Shown here piece after piece: positions 9,896 through 18,209 of a stretch of 39,533 bases of DNA. The DNA lies in contig DYLT01000006.1 in NCBI GenBank assembly GCA_020721945.1, positions 1 to 39,533 on the forward strand, written 5' to 3'. The notes below the pieces were generated by a model, which was not told the DNA's origin, did not search any database, and saw only the letters and a list, made by a program, of their open reading frames with translations. Positions within the stretch are counted from its first letter, which is position 1. Each line of letters opens with the position of its first letter. The stretch is from Blastopirellula marina (GTDB lineage: Bacteria > Planctomycetota > Planctomycetia > Pirellulales > Thermoguttaceae). Made by a program: the position numbers and the translations under genes.

Positions 9896-11152
9896 ATGTC
9901 CGAAAACGAAATCGTGATTACGGGCGTGGGCGTCCTGTGTCCCTCGGGCATCGGGCGCGAGGCGATTCGCGCAGCGCTATTGGCCGGTCGCAGCGCGGTG
10001 AAGCGACTGGCGCACCTGGTCGAGGCTGGCCTGCCCATCGAAATCGGGGCCGAGGTCGAGGGGTTCGACCCCCGCGCGTTCGTGGCCAACCGCAAGAACC
10101 TCAAGGTCATGTCGCGCGATGCGCAGTTCGGTGTGGCCGCCGCGGTCTTGGCCTGCCGCGATGCGGCCCTGGGCGGCCAGGTCGCCCCGGAACGCCTCGG
10201 CGTGATCCTGGGGGCGGATCGCATCAGCAATCCGCTCGAGCGTTGCGAAGCCACCTACCGCAGTTGCCTGGTGGATGGGCGGTTCGAGGTTCGCCGGTGG
10301 CCCGTCGAGGGATTGGCCGCGACCTTTCCGCTGTCGTTCCTCATGGTCCTGCCGAACATGATCGCCTCGCACGTCTCGATCGCGCTGGATGCGCGCGGGC
10401 CGAGCAACACGATCCACCACGGCGACGTGTCGGGCTTGCTGGCCCTTGGCGAGGCAGCCCGGGTCCTCCAGCGGGGCGCGGCCGACGCGATGATCGCCGG
10501 CGGGGTGGGCTGTCAGGGCACGCTCTTCGACTGGACCAGGCACTGCGCGATGGGCCGGTGGTCGCGGCGCCAGGACGATCCGGCCGGCGCCATGTGCCCG
10601 TTCGACGCCCGGCGCGACGGAGAAGTGCGAGGCGAGGGGGCCGGCGCGCTGGTCCTCGAGACCCGCCGCCATGCCGAGGCGCGCGGTGCCCGAATCGTCG
10701 CCCGGCTGCTCGGCTGGTCGGCCGCGTGCGATCCGCCCTCGCGGGCCGGCCCGAACCATGCGGGCCTGGCGAGGGCGATCCGCCACGCGCTGGCCCAGGC
10801 GAGGCTCGATCCCCGGGATATCGGCCACATCAATGCCCACGGCGCCAGCACCGTCGAAGACGACGCGCGCGAGGCCCAGGCCCTGGCCGACGCGCTCCCC
10901 GGGGTGCCGGTGACCGCCCCCAAGAGCTTTTTCGGCAATCTCGGGGCCGGGGCCGGGACGGTCGAGGCCATCGTCAGCCTGGTGGGTCTCGAGTCGGGGT
11001 GGACGCCGCCAACGCTGAACTACCGCTGCCCCGACCCCTTGTGCCCCGTCGACGTCGTGCGCGAGCCCCGGGCGCTTGTGCGGCGGTCGGCCGTGCTCGT
11101 CAATCGCACCCCGCAGGGCCAGTCGGCCGTCGTCGTGCTGGCCGGAACGTAG
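9896..11152 (+). CDS. Beta-ketoacyl-ACP synthase homologue with altered catalytic residues
   Basis: The 418-residue protein follows the FabF-type thiolase fold throughout: VITGVGVLCPSG, DARGPSNTIHHG, AARVLQRGAADAMIAGG, CPFDARRDGEVRGEGAG, INAHGAST and KSFFGNLGAGAG. FabF uses Cys-His-His. Here the nucleophile position (TACTSG in FabF) reads HGDVSG, so Asp177 replaces Cys; His315 is kept; and the second His (KSMTGHL) is Asn348. The usual NSFGFGG loop near the end is VNRTPQG. Condensing activity is therefore unlikely. Chain-length factors of type II polyketide systems also lack the Cys (usually Gln), so a partner or scaffolding role is conceivable, but no active KAS or ACP gene is next to it. The ATG lacks a clear ribosome site. 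Confidence 0.82.
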   Translation: MSENEIVITGVGVLCPSGIGREAIRAALLAGRSAVKRLAHLVEAGLPIEIGAEVEGFDPRAFVANRKNLKVMSRDAQFGVAAAVLACRDAALGGQVAPERLGVILGADRISNPLERCEATYRSCLVDGRFEVRRWPVEGLAATFPLSFLMVLPNMIASHVSIALDARGPSNTIHHGDVSGLLALGEAARVLQRGAADAMIAGGVGCQGTLFDWTRHCAMGRWSRRQDDPAGAMCPFDARRDGEVRGEGAGALVLETRRHAEARGARIVARLLGWSAACDPPSRAGPNHAGLARAIRHALAQARLDPRDIGHINAHGASTVEDDAREAQALADALPGVPVTAPKSFFGNLGAGAGTVEAIVSLVGLESGWTPPTLNYRCPDPLCPVDVVREPRALVRRSAVLVNRTPQGQSAVVVLAGT

Positions 11153-11170: not shown

Positions 11171-12418
11171 ATGAGTTTGCCGGTCCGAACGCTACCGATC
11201 GTCGAGCGGTGGGATTGCCACGGCTGCGGACGGTGTTGCCGTGGAACCATCATCGAACTCGATGCCGACGACCTTCGGCGGCTCCGCGCCCAAGGCTGGG
11301 AAGAGCATCCCGACTACCGGGGCCAAGCGATCGTCGCGCGCCGCGGCCTGTGGCGGCGCCGCGATCACTTGGCCAAGCGGCCCGACGGAAGCTGCATCTT
11401 CCTCTTGCCCGACGGGCGCTGCCGCATCCACCGCGAGTTCGGCATGGAAGCCAAGCCGCTGGTGTGCCAGATGTTCCCGCTCCAGATCGTGCCGTTGGAC
11501 CAGTTCGCCTACGTCACCTTGCGGCGATTCTGCCCGTCGGCGGCCGCGGACCGGGGACGGCCTATGGACGAGCACCGTGCGACGGCGCGCGACCTGGTCG
11601 AGCGATGGCAAAAACGCCCCCGGCCGGCGGCCCCCCCGCCGCTCGTGCGCGGACGCCGTTCGTCGTGGAACGATGTTCTCGTGGTGGCCGACGCGCTGGG
11701 GCGGCTGGTGCGCGATGCGACCTACCCGCTGGTCCGCCGCCTGGTCCACGCCTTGGAGTTCTGCGACCTGCTCGAAAGCTGCCGGTTCGACCGGCTGGAA
11801 GGGAGCCGTTTGGTCGAGCTGGCATCGCTCCTCGAGGCGGCGGCGGTGCGCGACAGCGGCCAATGGTTTCAGAATCGGCAGGCCCCAGACCCGCGCACCG
11901 CGAGACTTTTCCGCCAGACCGTGTTCGAGTACCTCAGCCTCCACCCCCGGCACACGCCCGACCACTCGTGGAAAGCGCGTTGGCGTCTGCTGGTCGAGGC
12001 AACGCGGTTCCATCGGGGAAGCGGAAAGGCCTCGCGGCACGGACTGCCGTTTCCCAAGGCCACGTTCGAGTCGCTGGAGTGTGCGCGGGGACCCCTGGCG
12101 CAGACCGTGCTGCGCCCCATCAACCGCTGGTTCGAGGCCGCGGTCGCGTCGCTGCGGTTTTCGGTGCTCGCACGGCGGAGCTGGCCGGTGGTCGAGAGCT
12201 TTCGGGCGATGGCGCTCGGATTCCCCGTGGCCATGTGGACCCTGCGTCTGACGTGCGCGGATCGGGCGCCGGAGGTCGACGATGCCCTCGAGGTGGTCGC
12301 GATGCTCGATCGGGGCGAGACCTATGCTCCGTTGGTCGGGCGGCGGCATCGACTTCGGGTGACGGCCATGACGCGCCGCGCAGGCCTGGCCCGCCTGGCC
12401 GCCTGGTACGCCCGGTGA
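11171..12418 (+). CDS. YkgJ-type cysteine-cluster protein
   Basis: This 415-residue protein has the N-terminal cluster CHGCGRCC (Cys16, 19, 22, 23) and further cysteines in GSCIFLLPDGRCRIH (Cys75, Cys84), PLVCQMFP (Cys99) and RRFCPSA (Cys121). This is the YkgJ (UPF0153) pattern, thought to chelate a metal or Fe-S cluster; the biochemical role of the family is not settled. Residues from about 150 on form a long, Arg/Leu-rich, mostly helical C-terminal extension that I do not recognise; most YkgJ proteins are much shorter. It begins 18 nt after the ketoacyl-synthase homologue and likely shares its transcript. Its end is 5 nt from the end of the convergent pcm gene. Confidence 0.8.
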   Translation: MSLPVRTLPIVERWDCHGCGRCCRGTIIELDADDLRRLRAQGWEEHPDYRGQAIVARRGLWRRRDHLAKRPDGSCIFLLPDGRCRIHREFGMEAKPLVCQMFPLQIVPLDQFAYVTLRRFCPSAAADRGRPMDEHRATARDLVERWQKRPRPAAPPPLVRGRRSSWNDVLVVADALGRLVRDATYPLVRRLVHALEFCDLLESCRFDRLEGSRLVELASLLEAAAVRDSGQWFQNRQAPDPRTARLFRQTVFEYLSLHPRHTPDHSWKARWRLLVEATRFHRGSGKASRHGLPFPKATFESLECARGPLAQTVLRPINRWFEAAVASLRFSVLARRSWPVVESFRAMALGFPVAMWTLRLTCADRAPEVDDALEVVAMLDRGETYAPLVGRRHRLRVTAMTRRAGLARLAAWYAR

Positions 12419-13611: not shown

Positions 13612-13746
13612 CAGCGGCACTCGGAGCATTAGGTTCTAACCGCCCGAGGTCCCTCCAGGGGGATGCTCGACGGCAAATGGAGTTGCCGGCTCGTGGCGAA
13701 CCGATGTGAAATGGATTTTGCGCATCTTGCCACATGGGAGCGGACG

Positions 13747-15645
13747 GTGTCGTTTGGGGCCTCGCAGGATACGAAAGAACTGGTCCGGCAGGCGATCGAC
13801 ATCGTCGATCTGGTTGGCAAGTACTGTCAACTTCGGCGTCAAGGTCGCGGCTACGTGGCGCTGTGTCCCTGGCACGATGACACCCGGCCCAGCCTCCAGG
13901 TCAACCCCGAGCGTCAGTCGTGGAAGTGCTGGGTCTGCGACATTGGCGGCGATGTCTTCAGCTTTGTGATGAAGATCGAGGGGGTTTCTTTCCCCGAGGC
14001 GCTGGCGATGCTGGCCGACCAGGCGGGCATTCCGTTGAGGCCGGCTCGCGGGCAGGGCGTCCCCCAAGACAAGCGGGCATTGTATCAGGCGATGGCGTGG
14101 GCCGAGGCGCAGTATCATCAGTGCCTGCTGCGCGAGCCCGAGGCCGAGCCAGCGCGGCGTTATCTGGTCCAGCGAGGCATCACGCCAGAGAGCATCGAGC
14201 AATTCCGCCTGGGATTCTCCCCCAACCGCTGGGACTGGATTCTGCGGCGTGCCCAATCGGGGGGGCCTAGCGCGCGGGTGCTCGAGACGATTGGGCTGTT
14301 GGCCCAGAGCATGGAAGGCAGCGCCTACGACCGTTTTCGCGGGCGGGTGCTGTTCCCGATCCGCGATGTGCAAGGCCGTCCGGTGGGGTTGGGTGGACGG
14401 GTGTTGCCCGAGTCGGGCCATACGAGCCCCGCCAAGTACATCAACTCGCCCGAGACGCCCCTGTTCACCAAGAACCGCCTGCTTTACGGCCTGGATCAGG
14501 CCCGCGACGCCATCCGCAAGAGCCGCACCGCCATGGTCATGGAGGGCTACACCGACGTGATCGTGGCCCACCAGTTCGGCTTCGACAACGCGGTGGCGGT
14601 GCTCGGCACCGCGTTGGGCTCCGAGCACATCCGGCTCTTGAAGCGGTTTACCGACCAGATTCTTCTGGTGCTCGATGGCGATGAGGCGGGCCGGCGCCGT
14701 GCCAAAGAGATCCTCGAGTTGTTCGTGGCCCAGAATGTCGATTTGCGGGTGGTCGTGCTGCCCGACGATCTGGACCCTTGCGATTTCCTGTTGGCGCACG
14801 GGGCCGAGGCCTTTCGCGAGGTGTTGGCCGGGCATGCGGCCGATGCTTTGGACCACGCGATTCGCCTGTGGACCGAGGGGGTGGACCTGGCGACCGACAT
14901 TCACCGTTCGAGCGAAGTGCTCGACCGGCTGGTGACGATCGTCGCCAAGGTCCCGCGACTCCGGGACGACACGAAGACCGAGTTCCGGTTCCGCGAGGAG
15001 CGGGTCCTTCAGCGTCTGGCCACGAGTTTCCGCGTTCCGGAGCAGGATGTGCGCCATCGTCTGACCGCACTACGTCGGGCCGCTCGCGAGCGTCCGGGCC
15101 CAGCCAAGGCGACGGCGGTGCGTGGCGACGATCCTCGGCAAGCCAGCGCGCTGGCCGGTGCCGCAGGGCTGTTGCCTCGCGGCACGCTCGATCCGTGGCA
15201 GCGGGCACTCATGGAACTGCTCGTGCGCCACCCGGAGTGCCTCGCGCCCCTCCGCGCCGCGATCCGGCCGGAGGCCCTCGAGCATGAGTCTTGTCGCGAG
15301 ATCTACCTGACGTCGTGCCGGCTGGCCGATGCGGGCGTATGGCCTGCGTTCGACCGGCTGTTGCTGGAGTTCGACGATCCGGCCGTGAAAAACCTGCTGG
15401 TCGAACTGGACGAAGGGGGCGCGGCCAAGGAGGTGACCGACCCTGAACCTCTGTTGGAGGAGTTGATCCGAAGCTACCGCACACGCGAGTTGAACCGGCA
15501 GCATCCGGTGATTACGGGGGTGCTCCGGGAAGGGCGTTTGGACGAACGCCAGCAAACCGACCTTCTGCTTCAGCTTCTGGAGCAGGAACGAGCCCGGCGT
15601 GGCATTTCCTTGCCCACGGAGGGGCGGGACCACGCTTCGGGCTGA
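13747..15645 (+). CDS. dnaG: DNA primase DnaG
   Basis: DnaG makes RNA primers at the replication fork. The N-terminus has the zinc-finger CPWHDD with CWVC about 20 residues later, followed by GGDVFSFVM and FPEALAMLADQAGI. The central core has LYGLDQAR and the Toprim motifs VMEGYTDVIVAHQ and LVLDGDEAGRRRA. The C-terminal part is the DnaB-interacting-like helical region (about 430-632). I chose GTG at 13747, giving VSFGASQDTKELVRQ, because GGGAG (13736-13740) lies 6 nt upstream and planctomycete DnaG proteins begin at this point. The frame is open to 13663 (84 nt further) but those residues are not family-like. rpoD follows after 90 nt, matching the conserved primase-sigma operon of many bacteria. 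Confidence 0.93.
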   Translation: MSFGASQDTKELVRQAIDIVDLVGKYCQLRRQGRGYVALCPWHDDTRPSLQVNPERQSWKCWVCDIGGDVFSFVMKIEGVSFPEALAMLADQAGIPLRPARGQGVPQDKRALYQAMAWAEAQYHQCLLREPEAEPARRYLVQRGITPESIEQFRLGFSPNRWDWILRRAQSGGPSARVLETIGLLAQSMEGSAYDRFRGRVLFPIRDVQGRPVGLGGRVLPESGHTSPAKYINSPETPLFTKNRLLYGLDQARDAIRKSRTAMVMEGYTDVIVAHQFGFDNAVAVLGTALGSEHIRLLKRFTDQILLVLDGDEAGRRRAKEILELFVAQNVDLRVVVLPDDLDPCDFLLAHGAEAFREVLAGHAADALDHAIRLWTEGVDLATDIHRSSEVLDRLVTIVAKVPRLRDDTKTEFRFREERVLQRLATSFRVPEQDVRHRLTALRRAARERPGPAKATAVRGDDPRQASALAGAAGLLPRGTLDPWQRALMELLVRHPECLAPLRAAIRPEALEHESCREIYLTSCRLADAGVWPAFDRLLLEFDDPAVKNLLVELDEGGAAKEVTDPEPLLEELIRSYRTRELNRQHPVITGVLREGRLDERQQTDLLLQLLEQERARRGISLPTEGRDHASG

Positions 15646-15735
15646 TCGGATCCGGCGCCGCGGCTGGCGTCACGCAGCACCGGCCGATCGAGTGTTTGGA
15701 CCCAGCGCGCCAGGAGGGCGCGAAAGGAGTCTCTG

Positions 15736-17415
15736 GTGGACCATCTCGACAAGGATCTTCAGGCCCTGGTTGCCAAGGGCAAGGCGCAAGGGTATCTCAC
15801 GTACGACGAAGTCATCGAGTACCTGCCCGACGAGGCGGTCAATCCGGACAAGCTCGATCATCTGCTCTTTGCCCTCGAAGAGCAGGGCATCGAACTGACC
15901 AACCGCCGTCGGCAGCCGGAGTTCTTCGACCCGGACGGGAAGGAATCCTCGCAGACGCCGGCGGAGGATTCCGCCCTGCTCGAGAGGCCCGACGAAGCCC
16001 AGGCGCGCCTGGTCCCGCCCGAGGAGGTGGCCAAGTGGTCGAGCGATCCGATCCGGCTCTATCTGAGCCAGATGGCCGATATTCCCCTCCTCACCCGCGA
16101 GCAGGAGATCGCCCTGGCCAAAAAGATCGAGGTGGCGCGCAAGCGGTTTCGGCGCACGGTGGTCGGATGCAACCTGGCCATGCGGGCGACGGTGAGTACG
16201 CTGACCAAAGTCCACAACGGCCAATTGCCGTTCGACCGCACGGTGAAGGTCTCGCTGACCGAGCGCTTGACCAAAGAGCAGATCATGGCGCGGATGCCGC
16301 ACAATCTGAAGACCCTTACCCATCTGATGGCCGAGAACCGGAAGGACTTCTTGCGCCTGATCGCCAAGCGCACTAGGCCCGACGTCAAAGCCGCTGCCCG
16401 CAAACGCTTCATCCGCCGGCGGCGGAAGATGCTGGTCCTCGTCGAGGAGTTGAGTCTCCGGACGCGGAGGGTCCAGGCGATGATGCGCCAGATGGAAGAG
16501 ATCCGCGACCGCATGGACTTCATCCGGCAGCGGCTTCGGATGATCGGCGACCGGCCGGAGTACGGCGTCGAGCGGGCCAAGCTGCGTCGGGAACTTTGCG
16601 AACTCCTGGTCACGACGCAAGACAGCCCCACCGGACTGCGGCGCCGCTGCGAGCAGATGCGCGAGCAATACCGCGATTACGAAGAAGCCAAGCGGGAACT
16701 CTCCGGCGGCAACCTCCGGCTGGTGGTCTCGATCGCCAAGAAATACCGCAACCGGGGGTTGAGCTTCCTCGATCTGATTCAGGAAGGGAACACGGGCCTG
16801 ATGCGGGCGGTGGACAAGTACGAGTACCGGCGCGGGTACAAGTTCTCGACCTACGCCACCTGGTGGATCCGCCAGGCCATTACTCGGGCTATCGCCGACC
16901 AGGCCCGCACCATCCGCATTCCGGTCCACATGATTGACGTCCTGAGCCGACTACGGAATACTTCCAAGAGGCTCCTTCAGGAACTGGGACGCGAGCCCAC
17001 CGTCGAAGAGACCGCTCGGGCCGCCGACGTGAGCCTCGATGAGTGCCGGCGCGTGCTCAACATGGGCAGGCACCCGGTAAGTCTTGACCGGCCCGTCGGG
17101 GAGAGCGAAGATAGTTGTTTTGGGGAATTCCTCGAGGACAGCAGCTCGGAGCGGCCCGAAAAAGTCGCCTCCAATGAATTGCTCCGCGAACGGATCGAGA
17201 ACTTGCTCAAAACCCTTACCTATCGGGAGCGGGAGATCATCCGGCTCCGATATGGTCTGGGCGACGGGTACACGTACACCCTGGAGGAGGTGGGGCGCAT
17301 CTTCAAGGTCACGCGCGAACGTGTCCGCCAAATCGAGGCCAAGGCCGTGCGCAAGCTCCAGCATCCCGTCCGCAGCCAGCAACTGGCAGGCTTCCTCGAG
17401 CGGGTGGCGGGATGA
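15736..17415 (+). CDS. rpoD: Primary sigma factor RpoD (SigA)
   Basis: This is the housekeeping sigma-70 subunit of RNA polymerase, 559 residues. Region 1.1 is seen at the start ([15 protein letters not shown]), then region 1.2 ([16 protein letters not shown]). A long, basic non-conserved insertion spans about 140-310. Region 2 begins near residue 321 ([19 protein letters not shown], then [13 protein letters not shown] for promoter melting). Region 3 ([13 protein letters not shown]-like) and region 4 ([28 protein letters not shown]) complete it. The start is GTG at 15736 with AAAGGAG just upstream. It is probably co-transcribed with dnaG, and a strong terminator lies directly behind it. Confidence 0.95.
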
Positions 17416-17426
17416 GATACACCGCC

Positions 17427-17459
17427 AGGCCGCCGATCGAAGGGTCGGCGGCCTTTTTT
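17427..17459 (+). terminator. Intrinsic terminator after rpoD
   Basis: A perfect 10-bp stem (AGGCCGCCGA at 17427-17436 with TCGGCGGCCT at 17445-17454) encloses an 8-nt loop and is followed by a run of six T (17454-17459, the last stem base included). It sits 12 nt after the rpoD stop and argues that the next gene starts at 17484, not at the ATG overlapping rpoD. Confidence 0.9.
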
Positions 17460-17483
17460 GCTTCTTGGTCCGAAAGGCCTTCC

Positions 17484-18209
17484 ATGTCCATGTCATCGCA
17501 AGTCACCGTCGCCACGGAAACCCTCCGTAAGCTCCACCGGGTCCACCAGCAAATCCGCGACTTGAAAGAGCGGGTGGAGCGTGGGCCGCGGATGGCCAAG
17601 GCCCATGCCGAGCACGTCGCCCGGCTCGAGGCCCAGGCCGAGGAGGCTCGCGCCAAGGCCAAGGATCTCCGGATCAGCGTCGACGACAAGCAGCTTCAGC
17701 TCAAGAGCCGCGAAGACGCGGTGGCGCATCGTAAACAACAGTTGCGCGAGGCCAAGAGCAACAAGGAGTACCAAGCGCTGAAGGAACAGATCGCGGCCGA
17801 CGAAATGACCAACAGCGTGCTGGCCGACGAGATCCTCGAGGGCATGGAGCGGCTGGACGAAGCCGTGGCCCAGGCCAAGGCCGCCGAAGAAGCCCTGGCC
17901 AAGGGTCGCCTCGACGCCCAGAAAGCTCAGGAGGAGATCGAACGCCAAGCCCCGCTCCTCCAGGACGACCTGGCCCGCCTGACCGAGGAGTTGCGCCAGA
18001 CCGAAGAGGACCTCCCGCCCGACTTCCGCGACGTCTATCAGCGCCTGATCCGTTCCAAGGGGAGCGACGGGCTGGCGCCGATTGCGGGAGAGTACTGTGG
18101 GGGGTGCCATCAGCACGTCCCGCTGAACATGGTCAACGCGCTGAGGCTCGCCAAGCCGGTCTTCTGCCGGTCCTGCGGAAGGCTGCTCTACCTGCCGCAA
18201 GAGAATTGA
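17484..18209 (+). CDS. Coiled-coil zinc-ribbon protein (CT398/HP0958-like)
   Basis: The first about 185 of 241 residues are a long, charged helical hairpin rich in Lys, Glu, Ala and Gln with heptad-like spacing (SNKEYQALKEQIAADEM is the typical turn region). The end is a four-cysteine ribbon, YCGGCHQHV and FCRSCGRLLY. This is the architecture of the CT398/HP0958 family, whose members interact with RNA or secretion and flagellar factors in other bacteria; the role in planctomycetes is not known. I start at ATG 17484, after the terminator, with AAAGG 6 nt upstream; a second ATG is at 17490. The frame is open back to 17412, but that would place the start inside the rpoD stop and read through the terminator hairpin. 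Confidence 0.82.
   Translation: MSMSSQVTVATETLRKLHRVHQQIRDLKERVERGPRMAKAHAEHVARLEAQAEEARAKAKDLRISVDDKQLQLKSREDAVAHRKQQLREAKSNKEYQALKEQIAADEMTNSVLADEILEGMERLDEAVAQAKAAEEALAKGRLDAQKAQEEIERQAPLLQDDLARLTEELRQTEEDLPPDFRDVYQRLIRSKGSDGLAPIAGEYCGGCHQHVPLNMVNALRLAKPVFCRSCGRLLYLPQEN

Follow-up and report, generated by a model that had tools for sequence, protein, structure and literature searches.

What can a ketoacyl-synthase (KAS) homologue do when Asp stands in place of its nucleophilic Cys and Asn in place of its second active-site His? The question is raised by a gene in a 39,533-nt stretch of Blastopirellula marina DNA (contig DYLT01000006.1 of assembly GCA_020721945.1; the whole stretch is called the window here). 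The original prediction, made from the letters of the window, had left a choice between a partner subunit, a decarboxylase-like relic and a new activity. Of these guesses the partner subunit is now the best supported, by the tandem position of relatives with an intact KAS and an acyl carrier protein (ACP) and by near-perfect co-occurrence with them. We conclude that the gene probably encodes a non-catalytic partner subunit, named KSbeta below, that acts like a chain length factor (CLF).

The open reading frame occupies exactly the interval given in Table 1, from an ATG start to a TAG stop, and is unbroken over its 418 codons. Its product matched both Pfam ketoacyl-synt domains, N (E 1.8e-30) and C (E 5.7e-21). 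Residue equivalences were taken from an alignment to E. coli FabF, in mature FabF numbering, and the protein was also aligned to solved KAS II structures. Asp177 falls on Cys163 of FabF, His315 on His303, Lys343 on Lys335 and Asn348 on His340, the same two replacements and two retained residues that had been predicted by eye. Two further losses had not been noted before: the gate/oxyanion loop NSFGFGG has become NRTPQGQ (residues 403-409), and Thr305 of FabF is replaced by Ala317. The earlier statement that the fold motifs are intact therefore applies to the KAS fold and does not extend to the active-site frame. With D177, H315, K343 and N348, the protein lacks the Cys-His-His triad with Lys of FabF/KAS II, and its score in the NCBIfam fabF model (TIGR03150) was 254.4, below the cut-off of 493.75. 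The pattern of KSQ-type malonyl decarboxylases, Gln at the Cys position with both His, is absent as well (Asp177 and Asn348). The window protein shares with CLFs a KAS fold without the active-site Cys; at the Cys position it has Asp, and the reference CLF row has Q.

An AlphaFold2 model of the window protein gave a confident KAS fold (predicted local distance difference test, pLDDT, 95.2; predicted template modelling score, pTM, 0.94). Over nearly its full length it matched FabF and KS-CLF structures (VIA Z 57-60, root mean square deviation ~2 A), with a Z of 58.3 for the actinorhodin CLF (1tqy_B) and equally high values for FabF structures. Because the model fits both kinds alike, the fold cannot separate an active from an inactive subunit. 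The closest solved structure by sequence was FabF/KAS II of T. thermophilus (1j3n, 36% identity), and FabF/KAS II (1j3n; E. coli 1kas) was among the closest by fold; the window protein is set apart from it by the missing GFGG loop and by the loss of two catalytic residues, the Cys and the second His.

We searched 60 genomes, one other of the same genus and the remainder from the same family and order, and all 60 had a match at E 1e-50 or better, the weaker ones including ordinary FabF. Conservation was counted in a 74-row alignment in which two rows are sister genes with Cys-His-His (C-H-H). The Cys position was acidic in 68 rows (E 42, D 26), Lys343 was kept in 73, Asp323 in all 74, Glu357 in 72 and His315 in 60, with N, R, Q, D, Y, F, T or S replacing the latter in some members. 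Position 348 read N in 49 rows and H in 16; H, D, Y, C, M or L occur there in other members. The view of Asp as unusual thus stands in comparison with Cys and Gln but not within the family, where an acidic residue is normal. Compared over 416 codons with its counterpart in the same genus, which is in two contig-end fragments, the window gene had a ratio of nonsynonymous to synonymous substitution rates (dN/dS) of 0.14, as against 0.18 for the neighbouring pyrroloquinoline quinone (PQQ)-repeat gene and 0.08 for the intact KAS described below as KSalpha. This value indicates that the window gene is under purifying selection and is not decaying, which, together with the conserved acidic residue, speaks against a relic. 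A decarboxylase-like role is also unlikely, since the second His is gone and His315 is variable.

To place the gene, we built a tree with FabF, FabB, CLF and planctomycete homologues. The Cys-less genes formed one clade (Shimodaira-Hasegawa-like approximate likelihood ratio test, SH-aLRT, 99 in a 50-row tree; 100/99 in a smaller, careful tree), which holds the window gene as well as the tandem KSbeta genes of other genomes. Pirellulales KSbeta fall into groups A (the window gene), B (contig C286 of the same genome) and C (its contig C471), so the window genome has three KSbeta paralogues. Group C is nearly uniformly E-H-K-N, and the FGFGG loop is absent from groups A-C. The sister of the whole KSbeta clade consists of intact C-H-K-H genes (KSx) from four genomes of one family (G072, G122, G101 and G190), in which a tandem KAS pair has Cys-His-His in both members (L184-L187). 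These were the exception to the finding that orthologues do not have Cys-His-His at these positions. Because this branch is still C-H-H, the loss of the active site is an old event in the lineage; the tandem pairs may show the state before the loss, and the order of losses is traceable. A second clade, KSalpha, comprises intact KAS and includes a gene of the window genome on contig C432; all 24 KSalpha rows have C-H-K-H and the GFGGQ loop. KSalpha and KSbeta grouped together (100/99), separate from FabF, FabB and the actinobacterial KS and CLF. Since the trees keep the CLFs apart, the name KSbeta denotes position and likely role, not CLF-family membership. The tree points to a CLF-like pair of separate origin from actinobacterial KS-CLF.

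In nine further genomes, which belong to other Planctomycetota families, KSbeta immediately precedes a KSalpha of the same strand (L188-L196), and this KSalpha is always intact; in L197, L198 and L199, contig ends cut the locus around the KSbeta-KSalpha point. Five of the loci (L188, L189, L190, L195, L196) have an operon of FabA/FabZ-like dehydratase (DH), in some a ketoreductase (KR), then ACP, DH, KSbeta and KSalpha. The ACP is an unusual one and a good marker of the KSalpha/KSbeta system: it is long (about 129 aa), has a GAES motif and an invariant AESID, and ends in a conserved extension at its C-terminus. The tandem position is a trait of some members, and membership in the lineage was accepted without it; it was not found for the window gene or for other inspected Pirellulales copies.

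We then searched one set of 199 Planctomycetota genomes three times, for KSbeta, KSalpha and the long ACP. KSbeta and KSalpha were assigned by their scores in two profiles, in fetched loci also by residues. KSalpha or long-ACP genes were present in 32 genomes, and 31 of these had a KSbeta-lineage gene (27 Cys-less, four of the C-H-H sister kind). Not one of the 167 genomes without the KSalpha/ACP system had such a gene. The co-occurrence gives a Fisher p of ~1e-35, in which relatedness is ignored, though the positives span >10 families. The copies of family f23, read in fetched loci, have AGEASG; in the chromosome of G154, KSbeta, KSalpha and a DH-ACP-DH set lie at three separate places. The co-occurrence has two exceptions: G093 has both KS genes and no long-ACP match in this search, and G229 has a KSalpha for which no KSbeta was found.

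The window holds no second KAS and no ACP, as had been noted for the immediate surroundings of the gene. A search elsewhere in the genome found intact KAS genes and a matching ACP. Among them is the KSalpha of contig C432, in an operon (L043, 4596-8343) that has the gene order of the relatives minus KSbeta. In the other genome of the genus (G001), KR, ACP, DH and KSalpha also lie together (L218), so that a binning artefact is unlikely to explain the operon. The C432 KSalpha is the simplest choice of partner. The partners may, however, differ by group, because in several genomes (L069, L066, L201) group C is found close to the housekeeping FabF.

Heterodimers of an active and an inactive KS are known from KS-CLF (PMC12664062), in which the pocket reaches the dimer interface and sets chain length (PMC12664062; PMC8358021). 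Actinobacterial CLFs (actinorhodin 1TQY chain B; Streptomyces xanthii L081 3944-5200) likewise have a Cys-less KAS fold with a changed second-His position, and their genes lie beside an intact KAS and an ACP, as in the planctomycete KSbeta operons. They differ in carrying Gln instead of Asp/Glu at the Cys position and in gene order, the S. xanthii CLF lying directly downstream of its KS (L081) and planctomycete KSbeta directly upstream of KSalpha. The window gene, unlike the actinobacterial CLF gene, lies apart from the gene presumed to be its partner, and it has a separate origin in the tree. The same logic of KR, DH, ACP, KS and inactive KS, that of highly reducing type II systems, is found in the aryl polyene ApeO-ApeC and ishigamide KS-CLF systems (PMC8358021; 6kxd), compared with which planctomycete KSbeta is full length. 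In Kuenenia stuttgartiensis, a non-canonical FabF, kuste3606, is clustered with ACP, FabZ and FabF (PMC4790861) and reads Val163/Asn298/Glu333 (Table 2 of PMC2649909). It is another case of a degenerate KAS that has an intact FabF for a neighbour, along with ACP and FabZ; it is not among the rows of our tree.

The Asp/Glu-for-Cys substitution itself was already known, since Rattray et al. (2009) tabulated it for two FabF paralogues of Rhodopirellula baltica, NP_866153 (RB4527) and NP_865682 (RB3714) (Table 2 of PMC2649909). They gave NP_866153 as E163 H298 L300 K328 N333 E342 P392, matching the residues of our group C (E, H, HGL, K, N, E, TPQGQ), and by their residues both proteins look like members of the KSbeta family. 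The authors proposed recruitment of products from outside type II fatty acid synthesis (FASII) and gave no operon-pairing or CLF/heterodimer reading (PMC2649909). In the literature searched, which included few subscription journals, we found neither an earlier account that pairs KSbeta with KSalpha, describes the operon or proposes a separate origin, nor a later paper that treats these proteins in Planctomycetes. A partner role for KSbeta offers a testable explanation for the Rhodopirellula 'divergent FabF' with Asp/Glu that was left open in 2009. The work further draws attention to a lineage-restricted operon of fatty-acid-like kind in Planctomycetota, in which the ACP is long and several KSbeta genes stand against one KSalpha.

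From the KAS fold, the lost nucleophile, the place of relatives beside KAS and ACP genes and the distribution, we infer that the window protein is a KS partner. A duplication next to KSalpha in Planctomycetota would have given rise to KSbeta, which would then have multiplied (A, B, C) in Pirellulales and their relatives and moved out of the operon. The window protein keeps the KAS fold and dimer-forming core; gone are the nucleophile, one of the two His needed for decarboxylation, the gate loop and, presumably, catalysis. In a putative heterodimer with an intact KSalpha, in its own genome most likely the contig C432 KAS, it may shape the acyl pocket of the partner or the docking of ACP, and might thereby determine how long the chains of a fatty-acid-like pathway of type II become or which substrate it uses. 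Since the operon is without an enoyl reductase, a polyene or another unsaturated or hydroxylated product is plausible.

Several observations weigh against this role. In its own genome the window gene is not close to KSalpha, and that genome is a bin with an estimated contamination of 5.9%. Three KSbeta face one clear KSalpha there, so at least one of them may have another partner or stand alone. Genome G229 has a KSalpha, and the 199-genome search found no KSbeta in it. The co-occurrence statistic takes no account of phylogeny. Moreover, the acidic residue is kept with a strictness that loss of the Cys by itself would not demand, a possible sign that it has its own function. Such a function could take the form of a new E/D-H-N site that acts on acyl- or malonyl-ACP without an acyl-cysteine, for example in a decarboxylase, hydrolase or dehydratase-like step. 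Glu/Asp-His-Lys-Asn would then be a real active site with a KAS-fold chemistry so far unknown, working on ACP-bound chains beside KSalpha. The conservation of the acidic residue, Lys343, Asp323, Glu357 and, less strictly, His315, the almost uniform E-H-K-N of group C and the purifying selection on the window gene are in keeping with this. However, His315 and position 348 vary among members, the loop that completes the oxyanion hole is gone from groups A-C, and malonyl decarboxylation by FabF requires both His (PMC2649909). We therefore consider a new active site distinctly unlikely. A milder alternative is that one KSalpha may work with up to three exchangeable KSbeta subunits.

The dispersed group A loci without a conserved neighbour, the three paralogues per genome and the retained KAS fold would also suit a stand-alone homodimer, an acyl-ACP-binding pseudo-enzyme (sensor, carrier or regulator) that needs no KAS partner and for whose role groups A and B left the operon. 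The confinement of KSbeta to genomes with the KSalpha/ACP system makes this rather unlikely. It is very improbable that the window gene descends by transfer from the actinobacterial CLF family. Both have lost the Cys and the model fits 1tqy_B closely, although FabF structures fit it as well. In the tree, however, the CLFs join actinobacterial KSalpha (93/87) and fall outside the planctomycete group (100/99), a forced single clade of CLF and KSbeta was rejected (approximately unbiased, AU, test, p 0.018; long branches are a caveat), and the residue is Asp/Glu instead of Gln. Least credible of all is an ordinary FabF present as a single copy that is decaying or misassembled. In its favour, one gene has lost three separate features of the active site, but the frame is open, dN/dS is low, and the identical changes recur across many genera in a strongly supported clade of their own; conservation in orthologues refutes this explanation. 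A partner subunit acting like a CLF thus remains our preferred reading.

Table 1. Positions of the window gene, its active-site codons and the KSalpha operon of the same genome
Feature	Position	Strand	Remark
KSbeta-type ketoacyl-synthase homologue (paralogue group A), 418 aa	window 9896..11152	+	catalytic Cys and second His replaced
Asp177 codon	window 10424..10426	+	position of FabF nucleophile Cys163
His315 codon	window 10838..10840	+	position of FabF His303; kept here, varies within family
Lys343 codon	window 10922..10924	+	position of FabF Lys335; kept
Asn348 codon	window 10937..10939	+	position of FabF His340
RTPQGQ, residues 404-409	window 11105..11122	+	replaces FGFGGQ gate/oxyanion loop of active KAS
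Dehydratase	L043 (contig C432) 4596-5099
Ketoreductase	L043 (contig C432) 5169-5918
ACP	L043 (contig C432) 6087-6473
Dehydratase	L043 (contig C432) 6507-7031
KSalpha	L043 (contig C432) 6976-8343		start is that of the longest frame

Group A genes have no neighbours conserved beyond close relatives. In the window, a CxxCxxCC (flagellin lysine methylase-like) gene (11171-12418) starts 19 bp past the KSbeta stop and may be co-transcribed with it; in other genomes it is not a conserved neighbour of group A. Further downstream (13663-18209), dnaG, an rpoD-like sigma-70 gene and the gene of a zinc-ribbon coiled-coil protein stand in a row, apparently an ordinary macromolecular-synthesis operon. A fatty acid desaturase gene adjoins the group A KSbeta in L067 and L071. 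The group B KSbeta of the window genome lies beside genes for two GNAT-fold proteins and an NAD-dependent epimerase/reductase (L041, contig C286, 5928-10834). A resemblance of the group B neighbours and the desaturase to bacterial ceramide genes was confirmed by no family model: the GNAT protein had no match, and the best match of the epimerase, HpnA, was below the cut-off. Two KSbeta operons contain an aminotransferase, and the one tested scored as ordinary, not as serine palmitoyltransferase.

Group C KSbeta is found within a FabG-ACP-FabF stretch or close to one, and lies upstream of nusA, infB and rbfA (L069 4303-16601, L066, L201). In Pirellulales, a protein family of ~450 aa without a Pfam match (F6; L075 7399-8829) is encoded between FabF and KSbeta or adjoining KSbeta. 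Finally, five loci labelled Candidatus Kuenenia stuttgartiensis or Nealsonbacteria (L116, L139, L145, L148, L112) carry KSbeta genes ~50% identical to that of the window over almost the entire length, and these labels look doubtful.
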